Source: Prevotella sp. (lineage in GTDB: Bacteria > Bacteroidota > Bacteroidia > Bacteroidales > Bacteroidaceae). From it: a DNA stretch of 64,000 nt. This document shows positions 2,595 to 62,344 of this stretch, in pieces (within the stretch, counting starts at the first letter, position 1; each line of letters begins with the position of its first letter). The translations under genes and the position numbers were made by a program. The stretch covers positions 1 to 64,000 of the forward strand of contig JAFTGB010000052.1 in NCBI GenBank assembly GCA_017458125.1, written 5' to 3'. Below the pieces are notes generated by a model. The model did no database searches, was not told the DNA's origin, and saw only the letters and a program-made list of their open reading frames with translations.

Positions 2595-2755
2595 GAAATG
2601 AGAAATGAGTAATGAGTAATGTAAATGAAAAATGAAAAATGACTGTGTATTGAGATAACGTATATAAGAGATGACAGTAACACCATCTCTTCATTATTCA
2701 CTTTTCATTTACATTACTCATTTCTCATTACTCATTACTCACTTAATAAAAGAAT
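2595..2755. repeat. Heptamer repeats arranged as an inverted pair
   Basis: Directly after the stop codon come heptamers of the type GAGAAAT, GAGTAAT and GAAAAAT on the plus strand (2595-2640). After about 50 bases the same words follow in reverse complement (2690-2745: TCATTTACATTACTCATTTC and onward). The RNA would form a long A/U-rich stem between glutathione peroxidase and trxB. It belongs to a family of heptamer arrays seen at many places in this window. Confidence 0.7.
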
Positions 2756-3688
2756 ATGGAACACGTAAAATGCTTAATCATAGGCAGCGGCCCCGCAGGG
2801 TACACCGCTGCCATTTATGCTTCAAGAGCCAACTTGCAGCCCGTGGAATACTGCGGACTGCAGCCCGGCGGTCAGCTGACGCAGACCACGGAGGTGGAGA
2901 ACTTCCCCGGTTATCCGCAAGGCGTGGACGGCAACCAGATGATGATGGACCTGCGCGAACAGGCCGAGCGCTTCGGCACGGACATCCGCGACGGCAGCAT
3001 CACGAAGGTGGACTTCTCGCAGCGTCCCTACAGGCTCTGGGCTGAGGACGGCACGGAATTGGAAGCCGACACCGTCATCATTGCCACCGGTGCCAGCGCC
3101 AAATACTTAGGCTTGGACGACGAGCGCAAATACAACGGACAGGGCGTATCGGCCTGCGCCACGTGCGACGGCTTCTTCTACCGCAAGAAGACGGTGGCCG
3201 TCGTCGGAGGAGGCGACACGGCCTGCGAGGACGCCCTCTATCTGGCCGGTCTGGCCAAGAAGGTCTACATGATAGTGCGCAAGCCCTTCCTGCGCGCCTC
3301 CAAGGTGATGCAGCAGCGCGTCATGGAGCGCGAGAACATCGAGATACTGTTTGAGCACAACACATTAGGACTGTTCGGCGAAAACGGCGTCGAGGGTGCC
3401 CACCTCGTCAAGCGCAAGGGCGAAGCCGACGAACAGCTGGTCGACATCCAGATTGACGGCTTCTTCCTCGCCATAGGCCATAAGCCCAACACCGACATCT
3501 TCCGCGAGTGGCTCGACACTGACGAGGTAGGCTACCTCAAGAAGACGGACGGCACACCGCGCACCAAGCTCCCCGGCATCTTCGTCGCCGGCGACTGCGC
3601 CGACCCCGTCTACCGTCAGGCTATCTCTGCTGCCGGCACGGGATGCCAGGCCGCCATCGAGGCCGAACGCTTCCTGCTGAACCAGTAA
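2756..3688 (+). CDS. trxB: Thioredoxin reductase
   Basis: NADPH-dependent flavoprotein that reduces thioredoxin in the cytoplasm. The 310 residues match the low-molecular-weight bacterial type. Seen: FAD-binding GSGPAGYTAAIYASRA near the N-terminus, redox pair CATC at residues 134-137, NADPH-binding VVGGGDTACEDA, and the C-terminal FAD segment GIFVAGDC. The start is the first ATG after the inverted heptamer repeat. The preceding peroxidase gene is a plausible functional partner. A strong hairpin terminator follows 18 bases after the stop. Confidence 0.95.
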   Translation: MEHVKCLIIGSGPAGYTAAIYASRANLQPVEYCGLQPGGQLTQTTEVENFPGYPQGVDGNQMMMDLREQAERFGTDIRDGSITKVDFSQRPYRLWAEDGTELEADTVIIATGASAKYLGLDDERKYNGQGVSACATCDGFFYRKKTVAVVGGGDTACEDALYLAGLAKKVYMIVRKPFLRASKVMQQRVMERENIEILFEHNTLGLFGENGVEGAHLVKRKGEADEQLVDIQIDGFFLAIGHKPNTDIFREWLDTDEVGYLKKTDGTPRTKLPGIFVAGDCADPVYRQAISAAGTGCQAAIEAERFLLNQ

Positions 3689-3706
3689 TGCTGCATGAAC
3701 ACCATC

Positions 3707-3739
3707 AAAAAAGGCCTCGCTTCCCAGCGCGGCCTTTTT
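3707..3739 (+). terminator. Terminator of trxB
   Basis: AAAAAAGGCC pairs with GGCCTTTTT; the loop holds a further CGC/GCG pairing. Poly-A on one side and poly-T on the other make it usable in both directions. Confidence 0.85.
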
Positions 3740-4034
3740 CTAAAAACTAAATTAATCAACCATAAACCTTAACCATTAAAAATCATTGCTTAAATCTTAT
3801 GAAGTATCACACCTCTTACATTTAAGTAAAGGAAACAAATTCTTCCTATTTTAAGACACTGCAAAATTATCATATTCCGTACACTTCTTGGTTCACGATA
3901 GGTTATTAAAGGTTTAAAATGCATGATTTTGGCGATTAGCAAACTCTTAATAACGAAAATCAAACTATTTTTTGCCTTTTTGCATACTTTCACTATGAAA
4001 ATTAGCGATATTTGGAAGAAAATATTTATCTTTG
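3740..4034 (+). promoter_or_regulatory. AT-rich upstream region and -7 box of the hybrid kinase
   Basis: About 300 AT-rich bases without a convincing gene. At the end sits TAtcTTTG (4027-4034), only four bases before the ATG at 4039, so the transcript would begin at or next to the start codon (leaderless). No clear TTTG was found 20 bases upstream. A minus-strand open frame here (3790-4062) has no family features. Confidence 0.6.
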
Positions 4035-4038
4035 CCGC

Positions 4039-5772
4039 ATGTTTGTACCGAATCTTAACCACATCGACATTGCTTTATTAAGCATCATCGCACTGCTCAT
4101 TGCCATCATTCCTGTGGTGAGATGGCTCTACGTGCGCAGCCTGCGCATCAGGAACAGGCTACAAATGAGCTACATCTACACCAACATCACCCACGAACTG
4201 CTGACACCGCTCACCATCCTGGCGGCGTCGGTTGAGCACCTGCGCATGACGAGGCCCGAAGGAAAACGGGAATACGACCTGATGGACCTGAACATTCAGC
4301 GTGCCGTCAGGCTGCTGCAACAGATTTTAGAGACCAGCAAGCAGCAAGAGGGCGGACTGAAGCTGCGCGTCAGCCACGGCGACGTCATGAAGTACATTAT
4401 GGACACGGCCCGCTGCATGGAGCCGCTGATGGACAGCAAGAAGCTGCGGTTTGAGGCGGTCTGCAGGCCGGAGAGCATGATGGGCTGGATAGACACGGAC
4501 AAGTTAGACAAGATTATCTTCAACCTGCTGTCCAACGCCGCCAAGTATACGCCCGAGGGCGGTCATGTGATTATTGACGTGACCACCAGCGCCCACTACG
4601 ATAAAATCATCATACGAGTGGGCGACACGGGAAAGGGCATCCCCAAAGAGCACATGAAACAGTTGTTCAGCCGTTTCCACGACGGCGAGTACCGCAGCAG
4701 CCAGACCTTCGGCACGGGCTTGGGCCTGTCGCTGACGCGCGACTTGGTGTACCTGCACAAGGGCACCATCAAGTGCAAGAGCATGGAGGGACAAGGCACC
4801 ACGTTCTTCGTCACCCTGCCCATCAACAAGGAGGCCTTCGCCGCCTCGCAGCGTGACGAGAACAACAAGGTACGCATCGACACGGCCAGCAGCGTAATTG
4901 CCGACATCCCGCAGGAGACGTTAGACATGCTGACAGGCTTCCCCACGGCTGAGACATTAGACGACAACGCCTACACGCTGCTCATCGTGGAGGACAACAA
5001 GGAGCTGCTCATGCTGATGACGCAGCTGCTCCGTCCCCGATACCACATCCTGACGGCATCCAACGGCGTGGAAGCCTTGAATGCCGTCCGCAGCAACGAT
5101 GTCGACCTGATTGTCTCCGACGTGATGATGCCCGAGATGGACGGCTACGAACTGACGGCCAAGCTCAAGCAAGACCCGGAATACAGCCACCTGCCCATCA
5201 TCCTGCTGACGGCCAAGACGCAGGAGGAAGACCACGAGCGCGCCCTCACCGTCGGTGCCGACAGCTACATCACCAAGCCGTTCAGGTTAGGCGACCTGCA
5301 GCTGAACATCGACAACATTGTGGCCAACCGGCAACGCATACGCAGCACGGCGCAGGCGAAAGAGGAAGAGCTGACGGACGTGACGGCCAGCAAACAGTTC
5401 AAGTCGATGGACCAGGAGTTTCTGGAGCGCGCCATGCAGTGCATCAACGAGCACATCGACGACTCCGACTACAACCGCGACACCTTTGCCGCCGACATGG
5501 GAGCCAGTGCCAGCACGCTCTACAACAAGCTGCGCCTGCTGACGGGCATGAACGTCACGGCCTTCATCCGCGACGTACGCATCAAGACGGCCTGCCGCAT
5601 GGCTAAGGAAAACCCTGACCTGCGCGTCAGCGACATTGCCTACCGCGTGGGTTTCAAAGACCCGAAATACTTCGCCACAACGTTCAAGAAGCAGATGGGC
5701 ATCCAGCCCAAGGAATACTTTGACCGCATCAGGAGCGACAACGCCCAGACAGCCAAAGTCCAGCAAACGTAA
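4039..5772 (+). CDS. Hybrid histidine kinase-response regulator-AraC, no sensor domain
   Basis: One-protein two-component system, 577 residues. Order: one N-terminal membrane helix (about 8-30); HisKA with THELLTPLTIL (phospho-accepting His52); HATPase with NLLSNAAKYT, GDTGKGIP and GTGLGLSLT; a receiver with LLIVEDN, phospho-accepting Asp361 in VSDVMMPEMDG, and KPF; then an AraC-type double helix-turn-helix ending in VGFKDPKYFATTFKKQMG. Canonical Bacteroidales hybrid regulators carry a large periplasmic beta-propeller and Y_Y_Y sensor of some 700-800 residues; here it is absent. The ATG at 4039 directly follows the -7 box, so an upstream in-frame start is unlikely. The 3' end overlaps the convergent symporter gene by 44 bases. 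The signal sensed is unknown. Confidence 0.85.
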   Translation: MFVPNLNHIDIALLSIIALLIAIIPVVRWLYVRSLRIRNRLQMSYIYTNITHELLTPLTILAASVEHLRMTRPEGKREYDLMDLNIQRAVRLLQQILETSKQQEGGLKLRVSHGDVMKYIMDTARCMEPLMDSKKLRFEAVCRPESMMGWIDTDKLDKIIFNLLSNAAKYTPEGGHVIIDVTTSAHYDKIIIRVGDTGKGIPKEHMKQLFSRFHDGEYRSSQTFGTGLGLSLTRDLVYLHKGTIKCKSMEGQGTTFFVTLPINKEAFAASQRDENNKVRIDTASSVIADIPQETLDMLTGFPTAETLDDNAYTLLIVEDNKELLMLMTQLLRPRYHILTASNGVEALNAVRSNDVDLIVSDVMMPEMDGYELTAKLKQDPEYSHLPIILLTAKTQEEDHERALTVGADSYITKPFRLGDLQLNIDNIVANRQRIRSTAQAKEEELTDVTASKQFKSMDQEFLERAMQCINEHIDDSDYNRDTFAADMGASASTLYNKLRLLTGMNVTAFIRDVRIKTACRMAKENPDLRVSDIAYRVGFKDPKYFATTFKKQMGIQPKEYFDRIRSDNAQTAKVQQT

Positions 5773-7167: not shown

Positions 7168-7222
7168 CTATTTTCCGGCGGCGAAAGCAAATTTTTCACT
7201 TTTCACTTTTCACTTTATTTAT

Positions 7223-8690: not shown

Positions 8691-8703
8691 GCTGCGGTCA
8701 TTA

Positions 8704-8879
8704 GAATTTGATGCCCCGCGGCACCGAATTTGATGCCCCGCGCTACCAAAAAGTATCACCCGTTTTGGTAAATCGGCTAATCAAATTTGGTAGCGCGGGC
8801 AATCAAATTCGCTACCGCCGCTGATGCTTTTTACCACCGCCGCTGATACTTTTTGATTGCAACGCTGATACAAACAACG
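8704..8879. repeat. Mosaic array of eight 22-bp units between two terminators
   Basis: Units start at 8704, 8726, 8748, 8770, 8792, 8814, 8836 and 8858, a constant 22-base step. Units 1 and 2 share GAATTTGATGCCCCGCG; units 6 and 7 share ACCGCCGCTGAT and CTTTTT. The middle units reuse the same words in reverse complement: CGCTACC/GGTAGCG, AATTTGAT/ATCAAATT and AAAAAGTATCA/TGATACTTTTT. No reading frame or promoter is evident. See the finding for discussion. Confidence 0.65.
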
Positions 8880-10495: not shown

Positions 10496-13400
10496 TTATA
10501 TATCAGACAACAGTTGAAAGGCGGCTTCCACCGTTGGCACGTCGGCAATCACCATGGAGCGTTTGCCGTTTTGCTCGCGGAAGTTGCATCGTCGCGGGTT
10601 TCGCGCCACATAGGAGAGTATGCGGTCGAAGGCTTCGCTCTGGTAGTAGGGACTGTCGGCCTGGGTGACGAAGAAGAGCGACATGCGTCCCTGCTTGAGC
10701 ATGATTTTCTCGCACCCTAACTGCTTAGCTACACGCCGCAGGGGCACCACCCGCATCAGTTCCTCGCCCATTTGGGGCACGGGGCCGAAGCGGTCGATGA
10801 GTCGCGCACGGTAGGCAGCCAGCTGCTCGTCGGTCTGCAGCCCGTCCAGCTCGCGGTAGAGCAGCATGCGCTCCGAGTCGGAGGGCACGTACTGGTCGGG
10901 GAAGTACATCTCCAGGTCGCTCTCTAACGAACAGTCGGAGACGTACTCTAAATGAGAGGTGAGAGATGAGAGATGAGAGGTATGATTACCTTTCTTCTGA
11001 GCATTCGCGCCTTGAGCGTTATCATATCTCTCATCTTTCATCTCTAATCTTTCATCTCCCTCATTTCGCAGTTCCACCACTGCCTGCTGCAAAATCTTGA
11101 CGTAGGTCTCGTAGCCCAGGTCGGCAATAAAGCCAGACTGCTCGGCACCCAGCAGGTTGCCGGCACCACGGATGTCGAGGTCCTGCATGGCGATGTGGAT
11201 GCCCGACCCTAAGTCGCTGAACTGCTCCAGCGCCTCCAGTCGGCGACGGCTCTCGACGGGCAGTGCGGCAAGCGGCGGCGCTAACAGGTAGCAGAACGCC
11301 TTGCGGTTGCCACGGCCCACGCGCCCGCGCATCTGGTGCAAGTCGGAGAGTCCGAAGTGGTGCGCCCCGTTGATGATGATGGTGTTGGCATTGGGAATGT
11401 CGATGCCGTTCTCAATGATGGTGGTCGAGAGCAGCACGTCGTAGTCGTAGTTCTGAAAGTCGAGGATGATTTGCTCCAGTTCTTCGGGCTTCATCTGTCC
11501 GTGTCCCACGGCGATGCGCACGTCGGGCACGTACTTCTGTATGACCTCGCGGATGCGCTGCAGGTCGTTGATGCGCGGACTGACGAAGTAGACCTGTCCG
11601 TTGCGCGACATCTCGAAGTTGATGGCATCGGCAATGATTTCGGCACCGAAGGTGTGAATCTCCGTCTGTATGGGGTAGCGGTTGGGCGGCGGCGTCTGGA
11701 TGATACTCAGGTCGCGGGCACCGACCAGCGAGAACTGCAGCGTGCGCGGGATGGGTGTGGCCGACATGGTCAGCGTGTCGACATTGGTTTTCATCTGGCG
11801 CAGCTTCTCCTTTGTAGAGACGCCGAACTTCTGCTCCTCGTCGATGATGAGCAGTCCCAGGTCGCGGAACTTCACCGACTTGCCGATGAGCTTATGAGTT
11901 CCGATAATGATGTCCACCTTGCCGTCGGCCAAGTCCTTCAGAATGGCCGTGGTCTGCTTGGCCGAGCGGGCCCGCGAGAGGTATTCCACGCGCACAGGCA
12001 TGTTCTTCAGACGCGACGTGAACGTCTGGTAGTGCTGGTAGGCCAGCACCGTCGTAGGCACCAACACAGCCACCTGCTTGGAGTCGCAGGCAGCCTTGAA
12101 GGCGGCGCGCACGGCCACCTCGGTCTTGCCGAAGCCCACGTCGCCGCACACCAGACGGTCCATGGGCTGCGCCCGCTCCATGTCGGCTTTGACGTCGTTG
12201 GTGGCCTTCAGCTGGTCCGGCGTGTCTTCATAGAGGAACGAGGCCTCCAGCTCGTGCTGCATGAAGCTGTCGGCAGAGAAGGCGAAGCCCTTCTGCTGTC
12301 GGCGGGCGGCATAGAGTTTGATGAGGTCGCGGGCTATGTCCTTCAGCTTCTGCTTGGTGCGCTCCTTCATGCGCTCCCACTGTCCGGTGCCGAGGTGCGA
12401 CAGGCGGGGCGGTTCGCCACCGTCCTGGGCCTTGTACTTCGACACCTTATATAAAGAATGTATAGAGACGTAGATGGTGCCGCCACCCTCGTACTGTATC
12501 TTTATCATCTCCTGATAGCCCGTGCCCTGCGGCATCCTGACCAGTCCACCGAAGCGACCGATGCCGTGGTCGATGTGTACCACGTAGTCGCCGATTTCAA
12601 ACTGCTGTATCTCCTTCAGCGTCAGCGCTACCTTGCCGGAACGGGCCTTGTCGGACCGCAGGTTGTACTTGTGGAAACGGTCGAACATCTGGTGGTCGGT
12701 AAACACGCAGAGCTTCAGGTCGTGATCCGTGAAACCGGCATGCAACGTGTGCTCAACGCCGTCGAAGACAATATTCTTCTGCTTGCTGTCGTCGCCGTTG
12801 AAGATGTCACGCAGGCGTTCCAGCTGCTTGGTGCTGTCGGCCAGGATGCACAGGCGGTAACCGTCCTTCAGGCTCTGTGCCAGCGACTGCTCAAGGAGTT
12901 CAAAGTTCTTGTGGAACTGGGGCTGCGGGGCAGTGTGGAAGGTGATGGTGACATCGGGCACCCCCGTGGGATGACTGCCTATCTCCACGCGCTGGAAGCG
13001 TTGCAGGTCGGCGGCCAGGTGCTGACCGCTGATAAGCTGCTGCTCTCTGCGCATTTGCTGCATGATATCGTGCTGCTCCTGCTCGGTGGCTCCCTCCAGA
13101 CGCTCCTGCATGGCTTGCGACGAAAAGCCTTCCTGATAGGTACGGTCGACAGCGTCGCGGACAAACAGGAAGTCGCGCGCCACCAACAGCGACGTGTCGG
13201 AAAGAAACGAGAGGAAGGACACCTTCTCCTCGGCTACTGCCAGCTCGGGCACAATCTCCACACGCTCACGCATGTCCTTCGACAACTGGGTTTCCACCTC
13301 AAAAGTGCGTATGCTGTCTATGTCGTCGCCAAAGAAGTCGATGCGGAAAGGCAGCTCACTGCTAAACGAATAGATGTCGAGGATGCTGCCGCGCAAGGCA

Positions 13401-13975
13401 AACTGGCCGGGTTCGTAGACGTAGTCGACCTCATGGAAACCCAACTGGCGCAGCGTCTCCATCACCCCGTCGACCTCAACGCTGTCGCCCCGCTGAAGCA
13501 CCAGCATGCGCTGGTCCAGCTGCCGCTTGGAGATGACCAATTCGGCCATGGCCTCCGGGTAAGTAACGATATATAATGAGGAATGAGGAATGTGGAGTGT
13601 GGAATGGGCTTCACTATTGCTCAGCTCTGACAAGCGGGCCAACACCTCAGTGCGGAGTATCTCGTTTGCGGCGTCGCGCTGCGCATACTTGATGGCGCGG
13701 CGGTAGCTGCTGGGAAAGAACAGCACACCACCCTCGCCTAACAGCTGCACCAGGTCGTGGTAGAAGTAGCCCGCATCGTCGGCATCCTGCAGGATGAACA
13801 CCGTGACAGGCGGCGAAGAGCGGCGATGGGCAAGGGCAGCAAACAACATGGGAGCCGACGAACACATTAGTCCATCGAGGAAAACCGTCTTTACCGAATG
13901 TTTTCCCCACGTATCGGCCAGCGCGGCAACCTGCGGCAGCGCGGCATACGATTTCAACAAGTCTTGTATGTTCAT
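10496..13975 (-). CDS. mfd: Transcription-repair coupling factor Mfd
   Basis: ATP-driven DNA translocase that removes stalled RNA polymerase and recruits UvrA; 1,159 residues. Order: UvrB-like module; RNA-polymerase-interaction domain (FEIGDYVVHIDHGIGRFGG); RecG-like helicase with GDVGFGKTE, DEEQKFG and TMSATPIPRTL; QMRGRVGR; and the C-terminal TRCF domain. I chose the ATG at 13975 because the in-frame ATG at 13999 lies upstream of the promoter box (13989-13996). Two stretches are encoded by in-frame heptamer repeats: about residues 122-134 (13575-13608) and about 970-1008 (10951-11067). Both lie at domain edges where length variation may be tolerated. Confidence 0.95.
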   Translation of the reverse strand: MNIQDLLKSYAALPQVAALADTWGKHSVKTVFLDGLMCSSAPMLFAALAHRRSSPPVTVFILQDADDAGYFYHDLVQLLGEGGVLFFPSSYRRAIKYAQRDAANEILRTEVLARLSELSNSEAHSTLHIPHSSLYIVTYPEAMAELVISKRQLDQRMLVLQRGDSVEVDGVMETLRQLGFHEVDYVYEPGQFALRGSILDIYSFSSELPFRIDFFGDDIDSIRTFEVETQLSKDMRERVEIVPELAVAEEKVSFLSFLSDTSLLVARDFLFVRDAVDRTYQEGFSSQAMQERLEGATEQEQHDIMQQMRREQQLISGQHLAADLQRFQRVEIGSHPTGVPDVTITFHTAPQPQFHKNFELLEQSLAQSLKDGYRLCILADSTKQLERLRDIFNGDDSKQKNIVFDGVEHTLHAGFTDHDLKLCVFTDHQMFDRFHKYNLRSDKARSGKVALTLKEIQQFEIGDYVVHIDHGIGRFGGLVRMPQGTGYQEMIKIQYEGGGTIYVSIHSLYKVSKYKAQDGGEPPRLSHLGTGQWERMKERTKQKLKDIARDLIKLYAARRQQKGFAFSADSFMQHELEASFLYEDTPDQLKATNDVKADMERAQPMDRLVCGDVGFGKTEVAVRAAFKAACDSKQVAVLVPTTVLAYQHYQTFTSRLKNMPVRVEYLSRARSAKQTTAILKDLADGKVDIIIGTHKLIGKSVKFRDLGLLIIDEEQKFGVSTKEKLRQMKTNVDTLTMSATPIPRTLQFSLVGARDLSIIQTPPPNRYPIQTEIHTFGAEIIADAINFEMSRNGQVYFVSPRINDLQRIREVIQKYVPDVRIAVGHGQMKPEELEQIILDFQNYDYDVLLSTTIIENGIDIPNANTIIINGAHHFGLSDLHQMRGRVGRGNRKAFCYLLAPPLAALPVESRRRLEALEQFSDLGSGIHIAMQDLDIRGAGNLLGAEQSGFIADLGYETYVKILQQAVVELRNEGDERLEMKDERYDNAQGANAQKKGNHTSHLSSLTSHLEYVSDCSLESDLEMYFPDQYVPSDSERMLLYRELDGLQTDEQLAAYRARLIDRFGPVPQMGEELMRVVPLRRVAKQLGCEKIMLKQGRMSLFFVTQADSPYYQSEAFDRILSYVARNPRRCNFREQNGKRSMVIADVPTVEAAFQLLSDI
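10951..11067 (-). repeat. Inverted heptamer repeats inside mfd
   Basis: On the plus strand GAGAGGT/GAGAGAT heptamers (10951-10981) are followed after about 55 bases by ATCTCTC/ATCTTTC heptamers (11036-11065), their reverse complement. The mfd mRNA would form a hairpin within its coding region. Encoded residues are of the type ERLEMKDERYD and HTSHLSSLTSHLE. The reading frame stays open throughout. Confidence 0.75.
13575..13608 (-). repeat. Heptamer repeats inside mfd, N-terminal part
   Basis: Plus-strand units AATGAGG, AATGAGG, AATGTGG, AGTGTGG in tandem. On the coding strand they give the insert HSTLHIPHSSL, between ELSNSEA and YIVTYPEAMAELV. Confidence 0.7.
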
Positions 13976-13996: not shown

Positions 13997-14040
13997 CAAA
14001 TAAATTTAGAATTAAGAATTTAGAATTAAGAATTATTTAG

Positions 14041-14076: not shown

Positions 14077-14829
14077 ATGCACGCAAGTGACAGCATCGTC
14101 ATCATTCCGACGTACAACGAAAAGGAAAACATAGAGAAAATCATCCGGGCCATCAGCAGTCTGGACAAGTGTTTCCACATACTGGTCATCGACGACGGCT
14201 CGCCCGACGGTACCGCCTCCATTGTCAAGACGCTATCGACACAACCCGAGTTCAGCGACCGCCTGTTCCTCATCGTACGCTCCAGCAAGCTGGGACTGGG
14301 CACTGCCTACATCACGGGGTTCAAGTGGGCTTTGGAGCACGACTACGAGTACATCTTCGAGATGGACGCTGACTTCAGCCACGACCCCAACGACCTGCCG
14401 CGCCTATACAGCGCCTGTGCCGACGAGGGTTACGACGTGGCCATAGGCTCGCGTTACGTCAGCGGTGTCAACGTGGTCAACTGGCCTATAGGCCGCGTGC
14501 TGATGTCGTACTTTGCCTCTAAGTACGTACGGGTAGTGACAGGTTTCCAGGTACACGACACGACGGCCGGCTTCGTATGTTACCGTAGGAGGGTGTTGGA
14601 AACCATCGAGTTAGACAAGATACGATTTAAGGGCTATGGTTTCCAGATAGAGATGAAGTACACGGCCTTTAAGATTGGCTTCAAAATCAAGGAAGTGCCT
14701 GTCGTCTTCGTCAACCGCCGCGAAGGCACCAGCAAGATGTCTGGCGACATCTTCGGCGAGGCATTCTTCGGTGTCATGCGCCTGCGCTGGGACGGTTGGA
14801 CGAGACGGTATCCTCAAATTGAGAAGTGA
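14077..14829 (+). CDS. Polyprenol-phosphate mannosyltransferase-like, GT2
   Basis: Membrane-associated GT2 glycosyltransferase that moves a sugar, probably mannose, from a nucleotide donor to polyprenyl phosphate. The 250 residues cover the DPM1-type catalytic domain: IVIIPTYNEKENIEKII at the start, VIDDGSPDG, EMDADFSHDP (DxD metal site), GSRYVSG, and HDTTAGFVCYRR. There is no C-terminal membrane domain, so it resembles the soluble-type DPM1/Ppm1 catalytic unit. Its stop codon lies inside a long palindrome shared with the convergent plsC gene. Confidence 0.88.
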   Translation: MHASDSIVIIPTYNEKENIEKIIRAISSLDKCFHILVIDDGSPDGTASIVKTLSTQPEFSDRLFLIVRSSKLGLGTAYITGFKWALEHDYEYIFEMDADFSHDPNDLPRLYSACADEGYDVAIGSRYVSGVNVVNWPIGRVLMSYFASKYVRVVTGFQVHDTTAGFVCYRRRVLETIELDKIRFKGYGFQIEMKYTAFKIGFKIKEVPVVFVNRREGTSKMSGDIFGEAFFGVMRLRWDGWTRRYPQIEK

Positions 14830-14869
14830 GAGATGAGAAGTGAGAATATTCTCACTTCTCATTTCTCAC
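14826..14869. terminator. Palindromic bidirectional terminator made of heptamer words
   Basis: The 28 bases at 14834-14861 are a perfect palindrome centred on AATATT, with arms of GAGAAGTGAG type. Pairing continues outward to 14826 and 14869 with one wobble, so it includes the stop codon of the glycosyltransferase and ends just before the stop of plsC. There is no T-run; the A/U-rich symmetric stem between convergent genes suggests termination (inference). Confidence 0.6.
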
Positions 14870-14873
14870 ATAA

Positions 14874-16637: not shown

Positions 16638-16676
16638 GTTTATTTACGATTTAACGATTTACTATTTACGATTTAA
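16638..16676. repeat. Heptamer repeats TTTACGA between operon genes
   Basis: Units TTTACGA, TTTAACGA, TTTACTA and TTTACGA follow each other between the stop of the MetH activation-domain gene and the phosphoesterase start. It is the same word family (AAATCGT/AAATAGT) that is inserted in frame in rsgA and mnmA. Confidence 0.7.
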
Positions 16677-20503: not shown

Positions 20504-20546
20504 CAAAAAGTTTAGAGTTTAACGTAAAGAGTTTAGAGAAATTTAG

Positions 20547-40099: not shown

Positions 40100-40150
40100 A
40101 ACAAAAAAGAATAAAAATAGTAAATCGAAAATAGTAAATCGTAAATAACA

Positions 40151-41497
40151 ATGATGTCAACACTATCAATCTGCATCGTCATCCTCTTCTGCGTCGGCTA
40201 CCTCTGCATAGCCATTGAGAGCGTGACAAAAATCAACAAGGCAGCCATTGCGCTGCTGATGTTTGTGGGCTGCTGGACACTCTTCATGATTGACCCGGCC
40301 AGCTATCTGGCGGCAGCCATCGGCGACATGAAGGCCGCCGTGGTGAGTCAGGAGATAGAACGCCACCTGGGTTCCACCTCCACAACACTGTTCTTCCTCA
40401 TGGGCGCCATGACCATCGTAGAGCTGGTGGACCAGAACGGGGGCTTCAACTTCGTGCGCGACACGCTGCAGACCAAGTCGAAACGCGGACTGCTATGGCG
40501 CATCGCCTTCATGACGTTCATCCTGTCGGCCATCCTCGACAACCTGACCACCAGCATCGTAATGATCATGATACTGCGCAAGCTGGTCAGCGACCAAAAG
40601 GACCGCCTCATCTATGCCGCACTGGTGGTCATCGCTGCCAACAGCGGCGGTGCTTTCTCGCCCATCGGCGACGTCACCACCATCATGCTCTGGAACAAGG
40701 GCGTCATCACCGCCGCAGGCGTCATCAGCGAAATCTTCATCCCTTCGTTGGTGTCGATGGTCATTCCCGCCTACATCCTGTCGCTGTCGCTGAAGGGCGA
40801 GCTCACGTTCACCGCACAGCAGGCACAGACGGTGAGCGCCAGCGAACTGACGACGTCGCAGCGTAAGGTCATCTTCTTCCTCGGCGTCGGCGGACTCATC
40901 TTCGTTCCCATCTTCAAAACCATTACCCACCTGCCGCCGTTCGTGGGCATCCTGCTGGTGCTCGGCGTGCTGTGGACCGTCACCGAGGTGTTCTATGCCA
41001 ACCTGAAGGAGGCGGAGGAGAAAGGTGCCATGCAGAAGCGCGTCACTAACATGCTGACACGCATCGACATGTCAACCATCCTCTTCTTCCTCGGCATCCT
41101 CATGGCCGTGGCCTGTCTGGAGACCATCGGCGTGCTGACGCTGTTAGGCAAGTCGCTCGACGTAGTCTTCGAAGGCAACCACTACATGGTGACCGGCATC
41201 ATCGGCGTACTCTCCAGCATCGTCGACAACGTGCCCCTCGTGGCCGGCTGCATGGGCATGTACCCCGTACAGGCCGCAGGCGACATGGCTGTGGACGGCA
41301 TCTTCTGGCAGTTGCTGGCTTACTGCGCCGGTGTGGGCGGCTCGATGCTTATCATCGGCTCCGCCGCCGGTGTCGTTGTCATGGGACTGGAGAAGATTAC
41401 CTTCGGCTGGTACATGAAAAAGATTACGTGGATAGCCTTCGTTGGCTACCTGGCCGGTATCCTGTGCTACTGGCTGGAGAAGACCTTCATCTTCTGA
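40151..41497 (+). CDS. nhaD: Na+/H+ antiporter NhaD
   Basis: Inner-membrane sodium:proton antiporter of the IT superfamily; 448 residues with about 12 hydrophobic segments. Seen: VTKINKAAIALLMFVGCW, ILDNLTTSIVMIMIL, NSGGAFSPIGDVTTIMLW, and VGGSMLIIGSAAGV, typical NhaD blocks. ATG codons at 40151 and 40154 are adjacent and either may be used. The spacer before it (40105-40150) contains AAATAGT/AAATCGT heptamers. A strong terminator follows. Confidence 0.92.
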   Translation: MMSTLSICIVILFCVGYLCIAIESVTKINKAAIALLMFVGCWTLFMIDPASYLAAAIGDMKAAVVSQEIERHLGSTSTTLFFLMGAMTIVELVDQNGGFNFVRDTLQTKSKRGLLWRIAFMTFILSAILDNLTTSIVMIMILRKLVSDQKDRLIYAALVVIAANSGGAFSPIGDVTTIMLWNKGVITAAGVISEIFIPSLVSMVIPAYILSLSLKGELTFTAQQAQTVSASELTTSQRKVIFFLGVGGLIFVPIFKTITHLPPFVGILLVLGVLWTVTEVFYANLKEAEEKGAMQKRVTNMLTRIDMSTILFFLGILMAVACLETIGVLTLLGKSLDVVFEGNHYMVTGIIGVLSSIVDNVPLVAGCMGMYPVQAAGDMAVDGIFWQLLAYCAGVGGSMLIIGSAAGVVVMGLEKITFGWYMKKITWIAFVGYLAGILCYWLEKTFIF

Positions 41498-46771: not shown

Positions 46772-46828
46772 AAAATGAGAAATGAGGAATGTAAATGAAA
46801 AAATGAAGAAATCCCTCATTTCTCATTT
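46772..46828. repeat. Inverted heptamer repeat between frr and rsgA
   Basis: ATGAGAAATGAGG and CCCTCATTTCTCAT form a 13-bp stem with an A-rich loop. It contains the heptamer words GAGAAAT and GTAAATG also found before trxB. Confidence 0.7.
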
Positions 46829-46837: not shown

Positions 46838-47785
46838 ATGAAAGGACTGGTCATTAAAAATACAGGAAGCTGGTACACCGTCCTCACGGACGAGAACCAG
46901 CTTCTTGACTGTAAGGTGAAGGGTAACTTCCGCATCAAGGGAATACGCTCCACCAATCCCGTTGCCGTAGGCGATCGCGTCACCGTTGACGAGGCAGGCT
47001 GGATTACCGAGATAGCAGACCGCCGCAACTACATCATCCGCAAGAGCATCAACCTGTCGAAGCAGAGCCACATACTGGCAGCCAACGTCGACCAGGCCAT
47101 GCTGGTTGTCACCATCGTAAAGCCAGAGACATCCACCACCTTCATCGACCGTTTCTTAGCGTCGGCAGAGGCCTACCGTGTGCCCGTCATCCTCATCTTC
47201 AACAAAACCGACATGCTCAGCGACGACGAACTGCGCTACCAGCAGCTGATGATACAGCTCTACGAGACCATCGGCTATGAGTGTCGCGCCATCTCGGCTG
47301 TGACGGGTGACGGCGTGGAGGCCCTGCGCCCTCTGTTAGAAGGCAAGATAACCCTGCTGAGCGGCAACAGCGGCGTGGGCAAGTCTACGCTCATCAACCG
47401 TCTGGTGCCCACGGCCAACCAGCGCGTGGCAGACATCAGCGATGCTCACCAGACAGGCATACACACCACCACTTTCTCGGAGATGATTCCCCTTCAAATA
47501 GTAAATAGTAAATCCGTAAATAGTAAATCCTCCTGGCTTATCGACACCCCGGGCATCAAGGGTTTTGGCACCTTCGACATGGAACGCAGTGAGCTGACCA
47601 GCTATTTCAAGGAGATTTTCGAGTTCTCCAAGCAGTGCCGCTTCTCTGACTGCACCCACACCCACGAGCCGGGCTGCGCTGTGCTCAAAGCCATAGAAGA
47701 CCACTACATCGCCCAAAGCCGATACCAGTCGTACCTCTCCATGCTGGACGACAAAGACGAAAACAAATACCGCGAAGCCTATTAA
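46838..47785 (+). CDS. rsgA: Ribosome small-subunit GTPase RsgA
   Basis: Circularly permuted GTPase that assists late maturation of the 30S subunit; 315 residues. OB-fold at the start, G4 NKTD (122-125), G1 GNSGVGKST (176-184), G3 DTPG (236-239), and a C-terminal zinc knuckle (Cys267, Cys272, His274, Cys280). The ATG at 46838 is preferred to a GTG nine bases upstream. Between switch I (TTTFSEM) and G3 lies an insert [12 protein letters not shown] (221-232) encoded by heptamers at 47496-47530. The 3' end overlaps the terminator stem. Confidence 0.93.
47496..47530 (+). repeat. In-frame heptamer insert in rsgA
   Basis: AAATAGT, AAATAGT, AAATCCGT, AAATAGT, AAATCC in tandem. It encodes [12 protein letters not shown] just before the G3 motif. 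Confidence 0.8.
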
Positions 47786-52029: not shown

Positions 52030-53133
52030 ATGGATGATTTAGCAAGCAAGAATATAGCCCTGCTGCTCTCTGGCGGCGTGGACTCCAGTGTAGCCCTCTA
52101 TGAACTGGTGCGCCAGGGTGTGCGCCCCGACTGCTTTTACATCAAGATAGGCCCGGAGGAAGAAGAGGAGTGGGACTGCTCTTCTGAGGAGGACTTGGAG
52201 ATGGCAACAGCCGTCAGCCGCAAGTACGGCTGCAAGTTGGAGGTCATAGACTGCCACCGCGAATACTGGGAGCAGGTGACGACCTATACTATGAGTAAGG
52301 TACGCGCAGGATTGACGCCCAATCCCGATGTCATGTGCAACCGCCTCATCAAGTTTGGTGCTTTCCACGAGAAGCAAGGCCACGCCTACGACCTCATTGC
52401 CACTGGCCACTATGCCCAGACGGAGGAGGAGGAAGAAAAAATAGTAAATAGTAAATCGTCAAATCGTAAATTAACCTGGCTTTGCACCAGCCCTGACCCC
52501 GTGAAAGACCAAACGGACTTTCTGGCGCAAATCTACGACTGGCAGTTGGCGAAAGCCCTCTTTCCCATTGGCCACATGATGAAGGAAGAGGTGCGCCTGA
52601 TAGCCGAGCGTGAGCACTTGGCTCCTGCCCACCGCCGCGACTCGCAGGGCATCTGCTTCTTAGGCAAAATCAACTACAACGACTACCTGCGCCGCTACTT
52701 AGGCGAACAGCCCGGCGACATCGTCGAGTTGGAGACGGGACGTAAGATTGGACAGCACCGCGGCCACTGGTTTCACACCATCGGCCAGCGCAAGGGACTC
52801 GGACTCGGCGGCGGACCATGGTTCATCGTCAAGAAGGACATCAACGAGAACATCCTCTACGTCTCCCACGGCTACGACCCCGCCACAGCCTACCGGCAGG
52901 TGTTTTCCATCCGCGACTTCCACAGCCTCAACGGCCAGCTGCCCCCGGCCAGCGTGACGCTGAAGATACGCCACACGCCCGAGTTCCTGCCTGCACGGTT
53001 AGAGGCTTCAGGCAACGGCCAGTACACCGTTCGCGCTGAAGCCCCCATTCATGGTGTCGCCCCGGGCCAGTTCTGTGTCATCTATGACGCCGACCACCAC
53101 CGCTGCTATGGTTCGGGCGAGATTTCACTATAA
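52030..53133 (+). CDS. mnmA: tRNA-specific 2-thiouridylase MnmA
   Basis: Inserts sulphur at the wobble uridine of tRNA-Lys, -Glu and -Gln. 367 residues: PP-loop SGGVDSS (14-20), catalytic cysteines Cys103 (NPDVMCNRLIKFG) and Cys209 (DSQGICFLG), and the C-terminal beta-barrel (IGQRKGLGLGGGPWFIVKK, in pieces). Residues about 136-149 (EKIVNSKSSNRKL) are encoded by heptamer repeats at 52438-52472 and are extra relative to the family. The IVNSKS string is the same as in rsgA. The start directly follows the -7 box. Confidence 0.93.
   Translation: MDDLASKNIALLLSGGVDSSVALYELVRQGVRPDCFYIKIGPEEEEEWDCSSEEDLEMATAVSRKYGCKLEVIDCHREYWEQVTTYTMSKVRAGLTPNPDVMCNRLIKFGAFHEKQGHAYDLIATGHYAQTEEEEEKIVNSKSSNRKLTWLCTSPDPVKDQTDFLAQIYDWQLAKALFPIGHMMKEEVRLIAEREHLAPAHRRDSQGICFLGKINYNDYLRRYLGEQPGDIVELETGRKIGQHRGHWFHTIGQRKGLGLGGGPWFIVKKDINENILYVSHGYDPATAYRQVFSIRDFHSLNGQLPPASVTLKIRHTPEFLPARLEASGNGQYTVRAEAPIHGVAPGQFCVIYDADHHRCYGSGEISL
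52438..52472 (+). repeat. In-frame heptamer insert in mnmA
   Basis: AAATAGT, AAATAGT, AAATCGTC, AAATCGT, AAATT in tandem, encoding KIVNSKSSNRKL within the catalytic domain surface. Confidence 0.8.
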
Positions 53134-58046: not shown

Positions 58047-58230
58047 TTCGTTTTCTGTTTCTTTTATGTCTATTAATAATAAGACGGACGACCGCCCGGA
58101 TTGTCACCTGCAACGGACTGTAAACTATGGCCGCCCGTACCGCACGGGACGGCTGACAACCATGACAAACAGAGGCCGCCGTCATGACAAACTACCCCCC
58201 CGGCGTTGACAACTATCGCCCACAGTGTTG

Positions 58231-58313
58231 CAATTTAAATTAAATTGCGCAGTAATTTAAATTAAATTGGTGAGCAATTTAAATTAAATTGGTCTGCAAT
58301 TTAAATTAAATTG
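58231..58313. repeat. Four 17-bp palindromes with a 22-bp step
   Basis: CAATTTAAATTAAATTG at 58231, 58253 (first base T), 58275 and 58297, separated by 5-base spacers. Each is an 8-bp inverted repeat around a central A. The 22-base step is two helical turns, so all four sites face the same side of the DNA. They lie 185-267 bases upstream of the pectin operon start. The rest of 58047-58230 holds several TGACAA words (58154, 58163, 58185, and TTGACAA at 58206) but no recognisable TAnnTTTG box. Confidence 0.85.
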
Positions 58314-58400
58314 CAAAGCCGCTGACGGCTAATGTCAAAGCAGGAAGCCTTGTCTGGCACGATTTTCCGCCGTTTCTGTCAAAGCTGTCGGACAAAGAAA

Positions 58401-59465: not shown

Positions 59466-59473
59466 CAAATTTA
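59466..59473 (-). promoter_or_regulatory. -7 box of the secreted-protein gene
   Basis: TAaaTTTG on the minus strand, 39 bases before the ATG. Confidence 0.7.
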
Positions 59474-59616: not shown

Positions 59617-59647
59617 TTGCAAATATCATTTTTTTTCTTTATATTTG
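59617..59647 (+). promoter_or_regulatory. Promoter of the 35-residue gene
   Basis: TTG (59617-59619), 20 bases, TAtaTTTG (59640-59647). Confidence 0.75.
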
Positions 59648-59699
59648 CTGCGTGATTGTAAACTTATGCCTAACTAACTAAAATACGGAGGACACAACT

Positions 59700-59807
59700 A
59701 TGAGAACTCAAAAAATGTTTAACGAAGAGGCCTATGACCTCGACAACCAGTACAACGAAGAGGACGAGCGCTACATGCGCAACGACACCAGCATCTGGTA
59801 CAACTAA
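59700..59807 (+). CDS. 35-residue acidic protein of unknown function
   Basis: Encodes MRTQKMFNEEAYDLDNQYNE then EDERYMRNDTSIWYN. It is acidic, rich in Asn and Tyr, with no hydrophobic segment, so probably cytoplasmic. It is framed by every element of a gene: a promoter with correct spacing, a strong Shine-Dalgarno (GGAGG, nine bases before the ATG), and a terminator 30 bases after the stop. Codon use matches the GC-rich neighbours (GACGAGCGC, AACGACACC). No homologue is recognised. Confidence 0.75.
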   Translation: MRTQKMFNEEAYDLDNQYNEEDERYMRNDTSIWYN

Positions 59808-59837
59808 AGTCTGAGCGCAAAAGGAAAAGAAAAAAAC

Positions 59838-59887
59838 TGCTGCCGCCTGCCCGGAAGACCGTCCAAGGCAAGGCGGCAGTAATTTTT
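59838..59887 (+). terminator. Terminator of the 35-residue gene
   Basis: CTGCCGCCT pairs with AGGCGGCAG, with an inner TGCC/GGCA, followed by TAATTTTTT. Confidence 0.85.
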
Positions 59888-59922
59888 TCGGCTTTTCACT
59901 GCTCACTTCTCACTTTTTTTCG

Positions 59923-59930
59923 TACCTTTG
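59923..59930 (+). promoter_or_regulatory. -7 box of the DUF6621-like gene
   Basis: TAccTTTG, with five bases between it and the ATG at 59936, so a leaderless transcript is likely. Confidence 0.75.
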
Positions 59931-59935
59931 CAACT

Positions 59936-60523
59936 ATGAACGACACGAAATGGACGGAGAACATCATACTGGTTGACGCTGACTACGTGGACGGCGTTGC
60001 CTTTAACCTCATTGTCAACTTTGAGCGCATGCTGGGACGACGCATACCACAGGCCGACATGGCACGGTGGATAGAGTGCGTGGCACTGGACGGCGGGCTG
60101 AAGCCGCAGGCTGACGGCAGCAACGTGACGCAGGTGGTGCTGGTGCACGAGAAAGCACAAATGGACAATTTCCTGCCAGGCATGCTGGAAGAGTTGGACG
60201 GCAAGGCGTTCAAGGGAGACGTGGGCGAGTTCCTCATCAGCTGCGTCAAAGTGGAGGAGATGGTGACCAAGGACGACCTGTTCGCCGACTCGCTGCGCAT
60301 CGTCAGCAGCGCCCCGGAGGTGCGCCGCCTGATGGTGGTGCCTGACGCGGAACACGACTACGACAAGGTGCGCCAGACACTGCGTCATGCCGACGACGAG
60401 AAGCGCATCACCGTCTTTGCCATGCAGCCCATGACGGGCGGACAGTTCCGTCAGGAGATACTCGGCTACTCGCTGATGGCTGCACTCGGCATCAGGGGGG
60501 AGGAGTTGAGAATTGAAAATTGA
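59936..60523 (+). CDS. DUF6621-like cytoplasmic protein
   Basis: 195 residues. ENIILVDADYVDGVAFNLIVNFERMLGR, in pieces, at the start, VALDGGL, VVLVHEKAQMDNFLPG in the middle and a GYSLMAALGI end resemble DUF6621 of Bacteroidales (from memory, moderate certainty). No signal peptide and no catalytic motif. It precedes the carboxynorspermidine dehydrogenase gene, with a spacer filled by heptamers (60505-60567). Confidence 0.65.
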   Translation: MNDTKWTENIILVDADYVDGVAFNLIVNFERMLGRRIPQADMARWIECVALDGGLKPQADGSNVTQVVLVHEKAQMDNFLPGMLEELDGKAFKGDVGEFLISCVKVEEMVTKDDLFADSLRIVSSAPEVRRLMVVPDAEHDYDKVRQTLRHADDEKRITVFAMQPMTGGQFRQEILGYSLMAALGIRGEELRIEN

Positions 60524-60570
60524 AAATTACAAATAGTAAATCGTAAATCAGTAAATCGTAAATAACAAAG

Positions 60571-61839
60571 ATGAGTAGGGTTTTAATGATTGGCGCCGGT
60601 GGCGTCGCAACAGTGGCAGCGTTCAAGATAGCACAGAACGCTGACGTGTTCACAGAGTTTATGATTGCAAGTCGCAGAAAGGAGAAATGCGACGCCATTG
60701 TGGAGGCGATAAAGAAGAAGCAGGAAGCAAACTCTTCACTCTTCACTCTTCACTCTTCAATTAACATCCAGACCGCCCAAGTGGACGCTGACGACGTGGA
60801 ACAGCTCAAGGCACTGTTCAACGACTTCAAGCCCGAACTGGTCATCAACCTGGCACTGCCCTATCAGGACCTGACCATCATGGAAGCCTGTCTGGCTTGC
60901 GGATGCTCCTACCTGGACACGGCAAACTACGAGCCGAAGGACGAGGCACACTTTGAATACTCATGGCAGTGGGCCTACCGCGAACGGTTCAAGGAGGCCG
61001 GACTGACGGCCATACTGGGATGCGGCTTCGACCCAGGCGTGACCAGCATCTACACGGCATACGCCGCCAAGCACCACTTCGACGCCATAGAGTATCTGGA
61101 CATCGTAGACTGTAATGCCGGCGACCACCACAAGGCGTTCGCCACTAACTTCAATCCCGAAATCAACATCCGCGAGATTACCCAGAAGGGACTCTACTGG
61201 GAGAACGGCAAGTGGGTGGAGACGGAACCGTTAGAGATTCACAAAGACCTCACCTACCCCAACATCGGACCGCGCGACAGCTACCTGCTGCACCATGAGG
61301 AGATAGAGTCGCTGGTGCTGAACTTCCCCACCATCAAGCGCGCCCGCTTCTGGATGACCTTCGGGCAGCAGTACCTGAAGCACCTTGAAGTGATACAGAA
61401 CATCGGCATGAGCCGCATCGACGAGATAGAGTATGAGGCACCGCTGGCCGACGGTACAGGCACAGCCCGGGTAAAGATTGTGCCCCTGCAGTTCCTGAAG
61501 GCTGTGCTGCCCAACCCGCAGGACTTGGGCGAGAACTACGAGGGCGAGACTTCGATAGGCTGTCGCATACGCGGCATAGGAAAGGACGGCAAGGAGCACA
61601 CCTATTATATATATAACAACTGTTCGCACCGCGCGGCCTACGAGGAGACAGGCATGCAGGGCGTCAGCTACACCACGGGCGTGCCGGCCATGATTGGCGC
61701 CATGATGTTCTGCAAAGGACTGTGGAAGAAGCCCGGCGTCTTCAACGTCGAGGAGTTCGACCCCAACCCCTTCATGGAACAGCTCAACCAGCAGGGCCTG
61801 CCGTGGAACGAACAATTCGATATGGATATCGAATTGTAG
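60571..61839 (+). CDS. Carboxynorspermidine/saccharopine dehydrogenase family
   Basis: 422 residues. NAD(P)-binding start VLMIGAGGVATVAAFKIA; ALPYQDLTIMEACLACGCSYLDTANYE, in pieces, and GCGFDPGVTSIYTAYA are diagnostic for the carboxynorspermidine dehydrogenase branch, which condenses a diamine with aspartate semialdehyde on the way to spermidine or norspermidine. The insert NSSLFTLHSSI (about residues 53-63) is encoded by four CTCTTCA heptamers (60730-60759), in a loop after the second Rossmann helix. The matching decarboxylase is not in the window. Confidence 0.88.
   Translation: MSRVLMIGAGGVATVAAFKIAQNADVFTEFMIASRRKEKCDAIVEAIKKKQEANSSLFTLHSSINIQTAQVDADDVEQLKALFNDFKPELVINLALPYQDLTIMEACLACGCSYLDTANYEPKDEAHFEYSWQWAYRERFKEAGLTAILGCGFDPGVTSIYTAYAAKHHFDAIEYLDIVDCNAGDHHKAFATNFNPEINIREITQKGLYWENGKWVETEPLEIHKDLTYPNIGPRDSYLLHHEEIESLVLNFPTIKRARFWMTFGQQYLKHLEVIQNIGMSRIDEIEYEAPLADGTGTARVKIVPLQFLKAVLPNPQDLGENYEGETSIGCRIRGIGKDGKEHTYYIYNNCSHRAAYEETGMQGVSYTTGVPAMIGAMMFCKGLWKKPGVFNVEEFDPNPFMEQLNQQGLPWNEQFDMDIEL
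60730..60759 (+). repeat. In-frame heptamer insert in the carboxynorspermidine dehydrogenase gene
   Basis: CTCTTCA repeated four times in tandem, encoding NSSLFTLHSS. The frame is kept. Confidence 0.85.
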
Positions 61840-61869
61840 AAGCAAGAGGCAAGAAGCAAGAAGCAAGAG
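61838..61869. repeat. Left inverted repeat of the four-helix-bundle cassette
   Basis: 32 bases of AGAAGCA/AGAGGCA heptamers beginning on the last base of the dehydrogenase stop codon. They match the reverse complement of 62313-62344 at 28 of 32 positions. Confidence 0.75.
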
Positions 61870-61896
61870 AAGAGAATAGTCGCATAACGGGAAATA

Positions 61897-62274
61897 ATGG
61901 ACGACTTCTATTATAGAAAGCTAAAGGTGTACCACATCTCAAAACAATTGGTAGCTGACATCTACCAGTTGCTTGACCATTTCCCACCGAAAGAACGACA
62001 GGCTCTTACAAATCAACTTCAAAGAGCTGCCATTTCTATTCCTTCAAATATCGCAGAGGGCATGGGACGGTTTTCTATCAAGGAGAGAATTCGTTTTATA
62101 GAAATTGCTTTTGGTTCATTAACTGAAACCATGTGCCAATTGGAACTTGCTGAAACCTTGAAATACATTACTCCAGAGCAGTTACATACACAAGAAATTA
62201 AGATAAAAGAAATTGCTCGCATGCTATTAGGACTCAAAAAGACATTAGAAGACAAACAAAATAAAATAAATTAA
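61897..62274 (+). CDS. Four-helix-bundle protein (23S rRNA IVS/S23 family)
   Basis: 125 residues of the TIGR02436 'four helix bundle' family: YYRKLKVYHISKQLVADIYQ, LTNQLQRAAISIPSNIAEG, GRFSIKERIRFIEIAFGSL, in pieces, and a C-terminal helix. Members are encoded inside 23S rRNA intervening sequences and as stand-alone genes, and resemble the avd proteins of diversity-generating retroelements. Codon use is AT-rich, unlike dehydrogenase and recA on either side. Imperfect 32-bp inverted repeats flank it (61838 and 62313), suggesting an inserted cassette. Confidence 0.88.
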   Translation: MDDFYYRKLKVYHISKQLVADIYQLLDHFPPKERQALTNQLQRAAISIPSNIAEGMGRFSIKERIRFIEIAFGSLTETMCQLELAETLKYITPEQLHTQEIKIKEIARMLLGLKKTLEDKQNKIN

Positions 62275-62312
62275 ATTAATAACTAAAGGAAAGAACATGT
62301 GGCATAAGTAAT

Positions 62313-62344
62313 CTCTTGCTTCTTGCCTCATGCTTCTTGCCTCT
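62313..62344. repeat. Right inverted repeat of the four-helix-bundle cassette
   Basis: CTCTTGC/TTCTTGC heptamers, the reverse complement of 61838-61869. It ends 16 bases before the recA ATG, so it forms the recA leader. Confidence 0.75.

Follow-up and report, generated by a model that had tools for sequence, protein, structure and literature searches.

The window, that is, the whole stretch of 64,000 nucleotides analyzed here (bases 1–64000 of contig C25), comes from a Prevotella genome of 3.37 Mb (G000; 86 contigs, 88% complete) and contains tandem arrays of seven-base units. Some lie between genes, and others are read in frame within four genes: mfd, rsgA, mnmA and a carboxynorspermidine synthase-type gene. 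This rumen Prevotella genome and many of its relatives carry such heptamer arrays both between genes and in frame in genes of core function, and close relatives can keep the site of an array while the repeated seven-base word changes.

Heptamer arrays in the window

Array coordinates were taken from Tandem Repeats Finder (TRF), which placed a repeat of period 7 on, or no more than about 10 bp from, each of the 16 positions named in the initial annotation and also revealed arrays absent from it, namely the mate arms at 2692–2744, 11026–11066 and 14849–14869 and the array at 59892–59915. A palindromic element has its left arm, (AAATGAG/TAATGAG)n followed by TAATGTAAATGAAA, at 2586–2642 (+ strand) and its right arm, an inverted copy of the left, at 2692–2744 (− strand); the inner register break is common to both arms, which pair and fold as DNA with z = −11.0, and the inner sequence recurs at other loci. 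At 7193–7216 (−), a GTGAAAA array continues into an ATTTGCT.. inner sequence resembling that of the AGTGAAG family described below. An inverted pair in the C-terminal linker of mfd, found by TRF, pairing and folding (z = −4.69), has arms at 10950–10980 (−; pyrimidine-rich in the sense strand) and 11026–11066 (−), and one unit of the latter reads TTA where the usual word gives TGA (codons read by eye). The N-terminal loop of mfd contains an AATGAGG/TCCACAT array at 13575–13606 (−), which was placed in a comparison of mfd from 81 species.

Beyond mfd, an AATTTAG/AATTAAG array at 14003–14035 (+; family comparison) lies between this gene and the open reading frame (ORF) at 14077, a short inverted pair, TGAGAAG/CTTCTCA, occupies 14818–14872 (unstranded; z = −7.28), a CGTAAAT/AGTAAAT array sits at a gene junction at 16642–16675 (−), a weak AGTTTAG array with 65% matches is at 20509–20538 (+), and an AAATAGT/AAATCGT array at 40115–40147 (+) ends just upstream of the ORF start at 40151. 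An AAATGAG inverted pair (46773–46828, unstranded; z = −5.95) precedes rsgA, which itself contains an AAATAGT array at 47496–47530 (+) that is now a 15-base (5-codon) repeat; mnmA contains an AAATCGT array with one extra base at 52439–52471 (+). Both coding arrays were compared with solved homologues, and that of rsgA also across 30 genomes. Near the end of the window, a TGAGAAG array at 59892–59915 (−) lies upstream of the ORF starting at 59936, and a TTGAAAA array joined to an AAATAGT/AAATCGT array at 60506–60564 (+), recovered by TRF and by period scoring, lies upstream of the start codon at 60571. An ACTCTTC array at 60731–60759 (+) falls in the carboxynorspermidine synthase-type gene, an AGAAGCA array at 61838–61868 (+; family comparison) overlaps the stop codon at 61837–61839, and an array of the AGAAGCA family in reverse orientation is at 62313–62344 (−). 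The three pairs other than 2586–2744 also fold better than shuffles, and two single arrays show little or no folding. A scan of the window with Rfam at gathering scores gave one tRNA only and no RNA family over the arrays, and that identity was rejected.

Excess of period seven and base composition

Periods were compared under one array scoring rule (match +1, mismatch −2, score ≥12). The own-genome sample was 1.132 Mb, partly picked from contigs already known from earlier matches to hold arrays, so that array density in it is not unbiased. The mfd set consisted of the window and the best 80 of 431 matches (81 species); the 80 loci of the relatives total 1.62 Mb. The nearest of these relatives are 81–82% identical to the window in mfd and are Prevotellaceae records, mostly metagenome assemblies, many of them from rumen samples.

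In the window, this rule gave 10 period-7 segments, none for periods 4, 6, 8, 9 and 13, one for period 5 and two each for periods 10, 11 and 12. The arrays far exceed chance: 464 kb of the same genome contain 72 period-7 arrays, and each of five block-wise Markov shuffles contains none. The 1.132 Mb sample holds 173 period-7 arrays. Period 8 has 36, period 9 has 20 and period 6 has 13; with periods 14 and 21 set apart as multiples of seven, no other period from 4 to 20 has more than 36. The mfd loci of the 80 relatives contain 206 period-7 arrays, and no other period from 5 to 12 gives more than 19. At least one array is present at 59 of the 80 loci; the exact AATGAG pattern was found in 8 of 59 relatives, the own genome apart. 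Two genomes, G024 (100 kb searched) and G010 (80 kb), gave no period-7 arrays. Other families of the order, sampled in 20 stretches (273 kb), gave nine arrays, eight of them in one 20 kb stretch (L166). The occurrence of arrays is thus patchy and extends beyond the genus. L166 belongs to a genome of another family (G059) and has the words GTTGATG, AATCTGA and CCTTAAA; its eight arrays with other words indicate that the trait arises elsewhere in the order.

An artefact of metagenome assembly was rejected in part: Prevotella sp. tc2-28 (L018), whose record is not labelled as a metagenome-assembled genome, has 13 period-7 arrays in 308 kb, five of them of the GTTTAC type. In the same 308 kb, period 12 (13 arrays) equals period 7, and period 6 (nine arrays) is close behind.

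Arrays in the own-genome sample are 31% GC against 54% for the genome, and 145 of the 173 show strong purine/pyrimidine asymmetry, as do 23% of 2449 intergenic 30-mers. The A/T-rich, strand-asymmetric composition noted in the initial annotation therefore holds in this genome; its supposed constancy does not extend across species, where words such as AACACCC, CTCCTTC and AGAGGAG occur.

Word families, inner sequences and inverted pairs

When arrays were grouped by word and placed on one strand, many were found to have a common sequence on their inner side. Among the matches listed, AGTGAAG arrays continue into AATTTGCTGCCG or AATTTCCTACCG, AGAAGCA arrays into GAATACTC or GA(A/T)ATG..GGTAAAC, and AATGAG arrays into TAAATGAAA. 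The inner sequence of the first AGTGAAG type, TGAAGAATTTNCTNCCG, has 36 matches in the genome with one mismatch allowed, and its reversed control has none. GTAATCATA lies within 30 bp of nine arrays (a copy between two arrays being counted twice), and the sample contains only 16 copies in all. A single inner core is found with two different arm words at L084:32 and L084:15881. REP/REPIN hairpins have a GTAG or CGTC tag at their foot; GTAG was seen by eye only inside some elements of the AGTGAAG family. For 119 of the 173 arrays, the sequence in which they lie resembles three or more places in the sample, a count that the heptamers themselves inflate.

An inverted partner within 220 bp was found for 59 of the 173 arrays, against 11 of 173 when the flanks of other arrays were used as a control, giving 33 merged elements; arrays are thus often inverted pairs, as had been noticed for intergenic copies in the window. 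Because the word families have fixed inner sequences and inverted partners, the arrays are not independent microsatellites.

Arrays inside genes

The mfd frame is open in 81 of 81 species. Period-7 arrays number 54 and are spread over 34 of the 81 genes, mostly at about 0.1, 0.3–0.4 and 0.85 of gene length, and all other periods from 5 to 12, codon multiples 9 and 12 included, give five arrays together and at most two for any one period. With period 7 dominant over codon multiples and the frames open, the seven-base step is due to how the arrays mutate, and the open frame to selection. Stop triplets occur in the antisense reading only for 26 of the 54 mfd words, in the sense reading only for 10, in neither for 15 and in both for three. 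The rsgA array has turned into a 15-base repeat and the mnmA array has gained an extra base, with the frame open in each. Selection on coding arrays, one of two explanations that the initial annotation had offered for the open frames, is therefore visible in the open mfd frames, the antisense bias of stops and the frame-keeping changes in rsgA and mnmA.

The arrays in rsgA, mnmA and the carboxynorspermidine synthase-type gene are in-frame extras. Solved homologues have gaps at the array of 9 residues in RsgA, about 11 in MnmA and 14 in the carboxynorspermidine synthase-type enzyme (whose gene scores below its NCBIfam cut-off), and both mfd array places vary in length among the 81 species. For RsgA, the 30 best-scoring proteins among 60 genomes searched were compared, the window's own included, with an array cut looser than elsewhere (score ≥8, without a control run). 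The loop stretch is bare, with 20–23 residues, in 13 of the 30, a period-7 array occurs in nine, with words that include AAATAGT, ACTCAAC, TCTCACC, CTCAACT, AACACCC and CATTGAC, and another insert occurs in eight, several of these being GC-rich palindromes.

Differences between close species

Comparison of 24 species pairs gave 117 directional comparisons, in which the partner had no array above threshold in 64, the same word in 17, and a word with one, two, three or four differences in 12, 10, 12 and two, respectively; because most sites are counted both ways and some species enter more than one pair, the number of independent sites is well below these totals. Where flanks were at least 90% identical (29 comparisons), nine partners had no array, seven had the same word, and three, four and six had one, two and three differences, with none at four. 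Differences between random heptamer words centre on three. Some partners scored as array-less hold a degenerate array below threshold (L042/L041). In L011/L013, with flanks 97.5% and 96.3% identical, words differ by three letters at two sites (GGTTAGT/AATTGAT and TCTTCAC/AATTGTC).

Whole-unit changes in length between close species, at several sites, agree with the suggestion in the initial annotation that units are added or lost: differences of 21 bases were found both within mfd and within a second open frame, and one of 42 bp between L060 and L066 in a further open frame. An array at position 6400 of L034 makes a gene junction 34 bases longer, and the same two genes overlap in L033, L036 and L037; its junction position and 34-base length rule out an in-frame insertion.

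The sister genomes G098 and G101 (mfd loci L060 and L066) are 96% identical in mfd. Of the six sites at which both carry arrays, three are at the mfd locus (flanks 77–93% identical) and three belong to the nine sites mapped along 33 kb of sequence (flanks 90–96% identical). Words differ at all six. Those of G098 are TTCCACA-like throughout, and those of G101 are CTCCTTC- or CTCGTTC-like at five sites and CTCCTCC/CTCCTCA at the sixth, where the first units match G098. All six G098 sites lie in open frames of at least 933 bases, and at one site both arms differ around a common core. The pattern ATTCCAC ×3 (two mismatches allowed) has 264 matches in G098, 4 in G101 and 4 in G000, a contrast that speaks for the overwriting reading given below.

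Position relative to genes

ORFs were called mechanically with starts taken from the longest ORFs, which makes distances and gene orientations rough. On this basis, a start follows within 5 bp for 14.8% of the 122 arrays outside ORFs and for 3.4% of random intergenic segments, and within 20 bp for 32% and 13%, respectively. Paired arrays are enriched between convergent genes (12 of 43, against 52 of 318 intergenic regions), and single arrays show no such enrichment (7 of 68). Between divergent genes arrays are rare (paired, 1 of 43; single, 9 of 68; against 88 of 318 intergenic regions). Several arrays of the window adjoin TAnnTTTGC boxes. Over the sample, only 7 of the 122 arrays outside ORFs lie within 40 bp upstream of such a box, against 10.9% of random segments, so that there is no enrichment and a promoter link was dropped.

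Other repeats

Below period 14, period 8 is the second commonest in the own-genome sample (36 arrays). Period-8 runs of ACACAAAG were found at L088:1051–1229, L099:7409–7593, L103:15759–15927 and L105:14302–14468, and those in L088 flank an AGAAGCA heptamer element on both sides. In the window, about four copies of a 22-bp repeat, GCAATTTAAATTAAATTG(C), at 58230–58314 lie inside a dispersed element of about 230 bp that is also present at several other places in the sample. Positions 1–120 belong to a GC-rich palindrome family of the CCTCCCCTTTCCAAGGGGAGG type; similar palindromes are translated in frame in Mfd and RsgA loops of other species. Two more dispersed repeat families of about 170–280 bp occupy 166–441 and 8700–8870.

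Interpretation

We give about even credence to a reading in which the arrays form the arms or tails of short, dispersed, non-coding repeats that fall into several families and are shaped by slippage, overwriting between loci and frame selection. It starts from what was observed directly: the arrays occur as dispersed copies with inner sequences and as pairs, their lengths change by whole units at several sites, orthologous sites are filled or empty, the word at a fixed site differs, and the frames of the examined genes are open. Rumen Prevotella would possess repeat families of about 40–200 bp, in each of which a heptamer array adjoins a fixed inner sequence and members occur singly or as two inverted copies able to form a hairpin. 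Slippage would add and remove units in seven-base steps. A new word would reach an old site when the array there is overwritten by a copy of an array from elsewhere in the genome, perhaps through template switching at short homology or ectopic conversion, and template switching in the hairpin would then match the second arm to the first. Selection would spare only copies in spacers or in tolerant protein loops with the frame left open, and the arrays would not require a cellular function. A stronger form of this reading, which we put forward only tentatively and judge somewhat doubtful, is that words turn over genome-wide: a set of scattered sites, many of them in protein loops or at the ends of genes, would persist, while within one lineage the dominant heptamer is replaced at many sites and both hairpin arms change together, as concerted evolution of a dispersed bacterial satellite by copying with a fixed seven-base step.

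Several observations weigh against this overwriting reading. Copying between loci, which we infer from word sharing and replacement, was never seen directly. Most genomes used are metagenome assemblies. In the own genome, 114 of the 173 arrays have no inverted partner within 220 bp, and bases 1–100000 of contig C5 (L089–L093) have no period-7 array at score ≥12, against several per 20 kb on other contigs, reflecting either regional variation or a foreign contig in the assembly. Between the sisters, six of the nine mapped G098 sites have no array above threshold in G101, so that gain and loss are as common as replacement; some of these array-less sites keep degenerate period-7 sequence, judged by eye. 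Position 11204 of L060/L066 retains part of the old array and fits stepwise change in place as well. The sister words are only two of seven letters apart and may there reflect descent with change. CTCCTTC ×3 is less skewed than ATTCCAC ×3, with 54 matches in G101 against 26 in G098; the word being nearly symmetric, its backward control gives a similar number. Totals of pattern matches do not equal array counts, as matches overlap inside arrays.

The main rival is a transposase-driven route, in which the elements are mobile palindromes of the REP/REPIN type (repetitive extragenic palindromic sequences) or the MITE type (miniature inverted-repeat transposable elements), the heptamers are slippage-prone arms, and a change of word is excision followed by a new insertion at a favoured site. 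Dispersed copies with common inner sequences and inverted pairs would be expected from it, as would presence and absence at orthologous sites such as the L034 junction, and the transposase family PF01797 shows a weak association with arrays: these occur at 26 of 29 loci where PF01797 is found and at 12 of 20 where it is not (p = 0.033 by Fisher's test; rank correlation of 0.25 with p = 0.083). The Y1 transposase has two matches in G000, but none was found in 20 of the 49 relatives scored, 12 of which still carry arrays (drafts that may be incomplete), and the array-rich genome G035 is among those without a PF01797 match. No target-site duplication was evident by eye in the presence/absence pairs among the matches listed, and fixed sites differ in word while the core stays. 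We consider this route improbable, though a serious contender.

Replication slippage only, with seven-base duplications arising anywhere, growing, and drifting in word by point mutation, would make period 7 a property of the polymerase, a proposal of Mrazek et al. that PMC4679880 and PMC4692102 cite. Slippage accounts for the unit changes, and length changes in multiples of seven at several sites, the dominance of period 7 in many species and a site that differs by six units from its counterpart of about 1.6 units in the sister all agree with it. Alone it is insufficient, because one word with one inner sequence recurs at dozens of loci of one genome, the arms of a pair have matched words, and words at one site are unlike in very close species, as at the L011/L013 site with three letters changed between flanks 97.5% identical. 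Copying from another array would explain these features, and we regard slippage alone as unlikely. Still less probable, and to our mind very much so, are binding sites or expression elements kept by selection, such as leaders near start codons and hairpins at gene ends whose words track a changing binding protein. The excess within 5 bp of starts and that of paired arrays between convergent genes would suit such elements, but single arrays lack the convergent enrichment, arrays also lie inside proteins, their presence varies among close species, and they are not enriched near TAnnTTTGC boxes. Writing by a reverse transcriptase of the DRT10 or telomerase type was unsupported: RVT_1, searched as one Pfam model in draft genomes, had zero matches in 30 of 43, including G000, G098 and G101. 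DRT10 itself makes 9-nt repeats.

The preference of bacterial tandem repeats for a unit of seven is, in the excerpts of PMC4679880 and PMC4692102, unexplained beyond the proposal of a polymerase contact. In pairs of close Prevotella species the process can be followed through gains of units, through sites that are filled in one species and empty in the other, and through words that differ at one site, and the coding sites in mfd and rsgA are a frame-filtered record of array turnover. Low-complexity loops in Prevotella proteins should be read with caution, as they can be repeat DNA translated in frame and not conserved protein sequence.

Comparison with known repeats

By their defining features, the arrays belong to a known kind, heptanucleotide repeats. 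Heterocystous cyanobacteria have short tandemly repeated repetitive (STRR) sequences, families of heptamer words dispersed in one genome, and are in this respect like Prevotella; one STRR word was searched for in the own-genome sample and the 80 relative loci and was absent. Rickettsia palindromic elements are palindromic repeats in frame inside protein genes. Likened by description, the inverted pair in Prevotella mfd is such an in-frame palindromic insert, and the rsgA and mnmA arrays are single; we know of no Rickettsia palindromic element built of tandem heptamers. REP/REPIN sequences, which are associated with TnpA-REP (RAYT) transposases, are short dispersed units found singly or as inverted pairs. 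They differ in that the Prevotella arms are tandem heptamers and a Y1 transposase was not consistently found. MITEs have terminal inverted repeats; in Prevotella, 59 of the 173 arrays are paired (control, 11 of 173) and the rest are single.

The following comparisons rest on excerpts of the papers cited. The initial annotation knew of no named element that fits; abundant heptanucleotide repeats have, however, been described in cyanobacteria, Xanthomonas, Beggiatoaceae and some Bacteroidetes (PMC4679880, PMC4692102). No paper on heptamer arrays in Prevotella was among the matches listed in the open-licence literature. A 188-bp intergenic repeat of the Prevotella intermedia/nigrescens group (PMC4755523), compared by description, is likewise high-copy and intergenic, and the excerpt does not mention heptamer structure. 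Heptanucleotide long simple sequence repeats (LSSR; Mrazek et al. 2007, as cited in PMC4679880 and PMC4692102) are also dominated by period 7 and patchy across species, and in Prevotella unit-7 arrays exceed chance (72 in 464 kb against none in five shuffles) and occur patchily among related species (59 of 80 relative loci). The Prevotella arrays differ from LSSR in being tied to dispersed families with inner sequences, in their inverted pairs and in the change of word at a fixed site.

In Beggiatoaceae, Cyanobacteria and some Bacteroidetes, direct repeats of TAACTGA (PMC4679880) are similarly heptamers between genes, many near start codons, with 7-nt indels and some copies in ORFs; the Prevotella genome, in contrast, has many words, and two-unit TAACTGA has no copies in the 1.13 Mb own-genome sample or the 80 relative loci. 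The GGGAATC and GGGGA(C/T)T repeats of Xanthomonas and Nostoc (PMC4692102) are abundant heptamers at the same gene junctions in two species, vary in length and sequence and, like the Prevotella arrays, are under-represented between divergent genes. Their words are of the G-quadruplex type, whereas the Prevotella arrays are 31% GC, and two-unit GGGAATC was likewise absent from the own-genome sample and the 80 loci. In-frame insertion at one loop across a genus was found in Prevotella and is not reported for GGGAATC repeats in the excerpts of PMC4692102. The tie to dispersed palindromic families, the in-gene sites common to species across the genus and the fixed sites at which sister species have different words are not described in the excerpts of PMC4679880, PMC4692102, PMC12632851 and PMC4755523.

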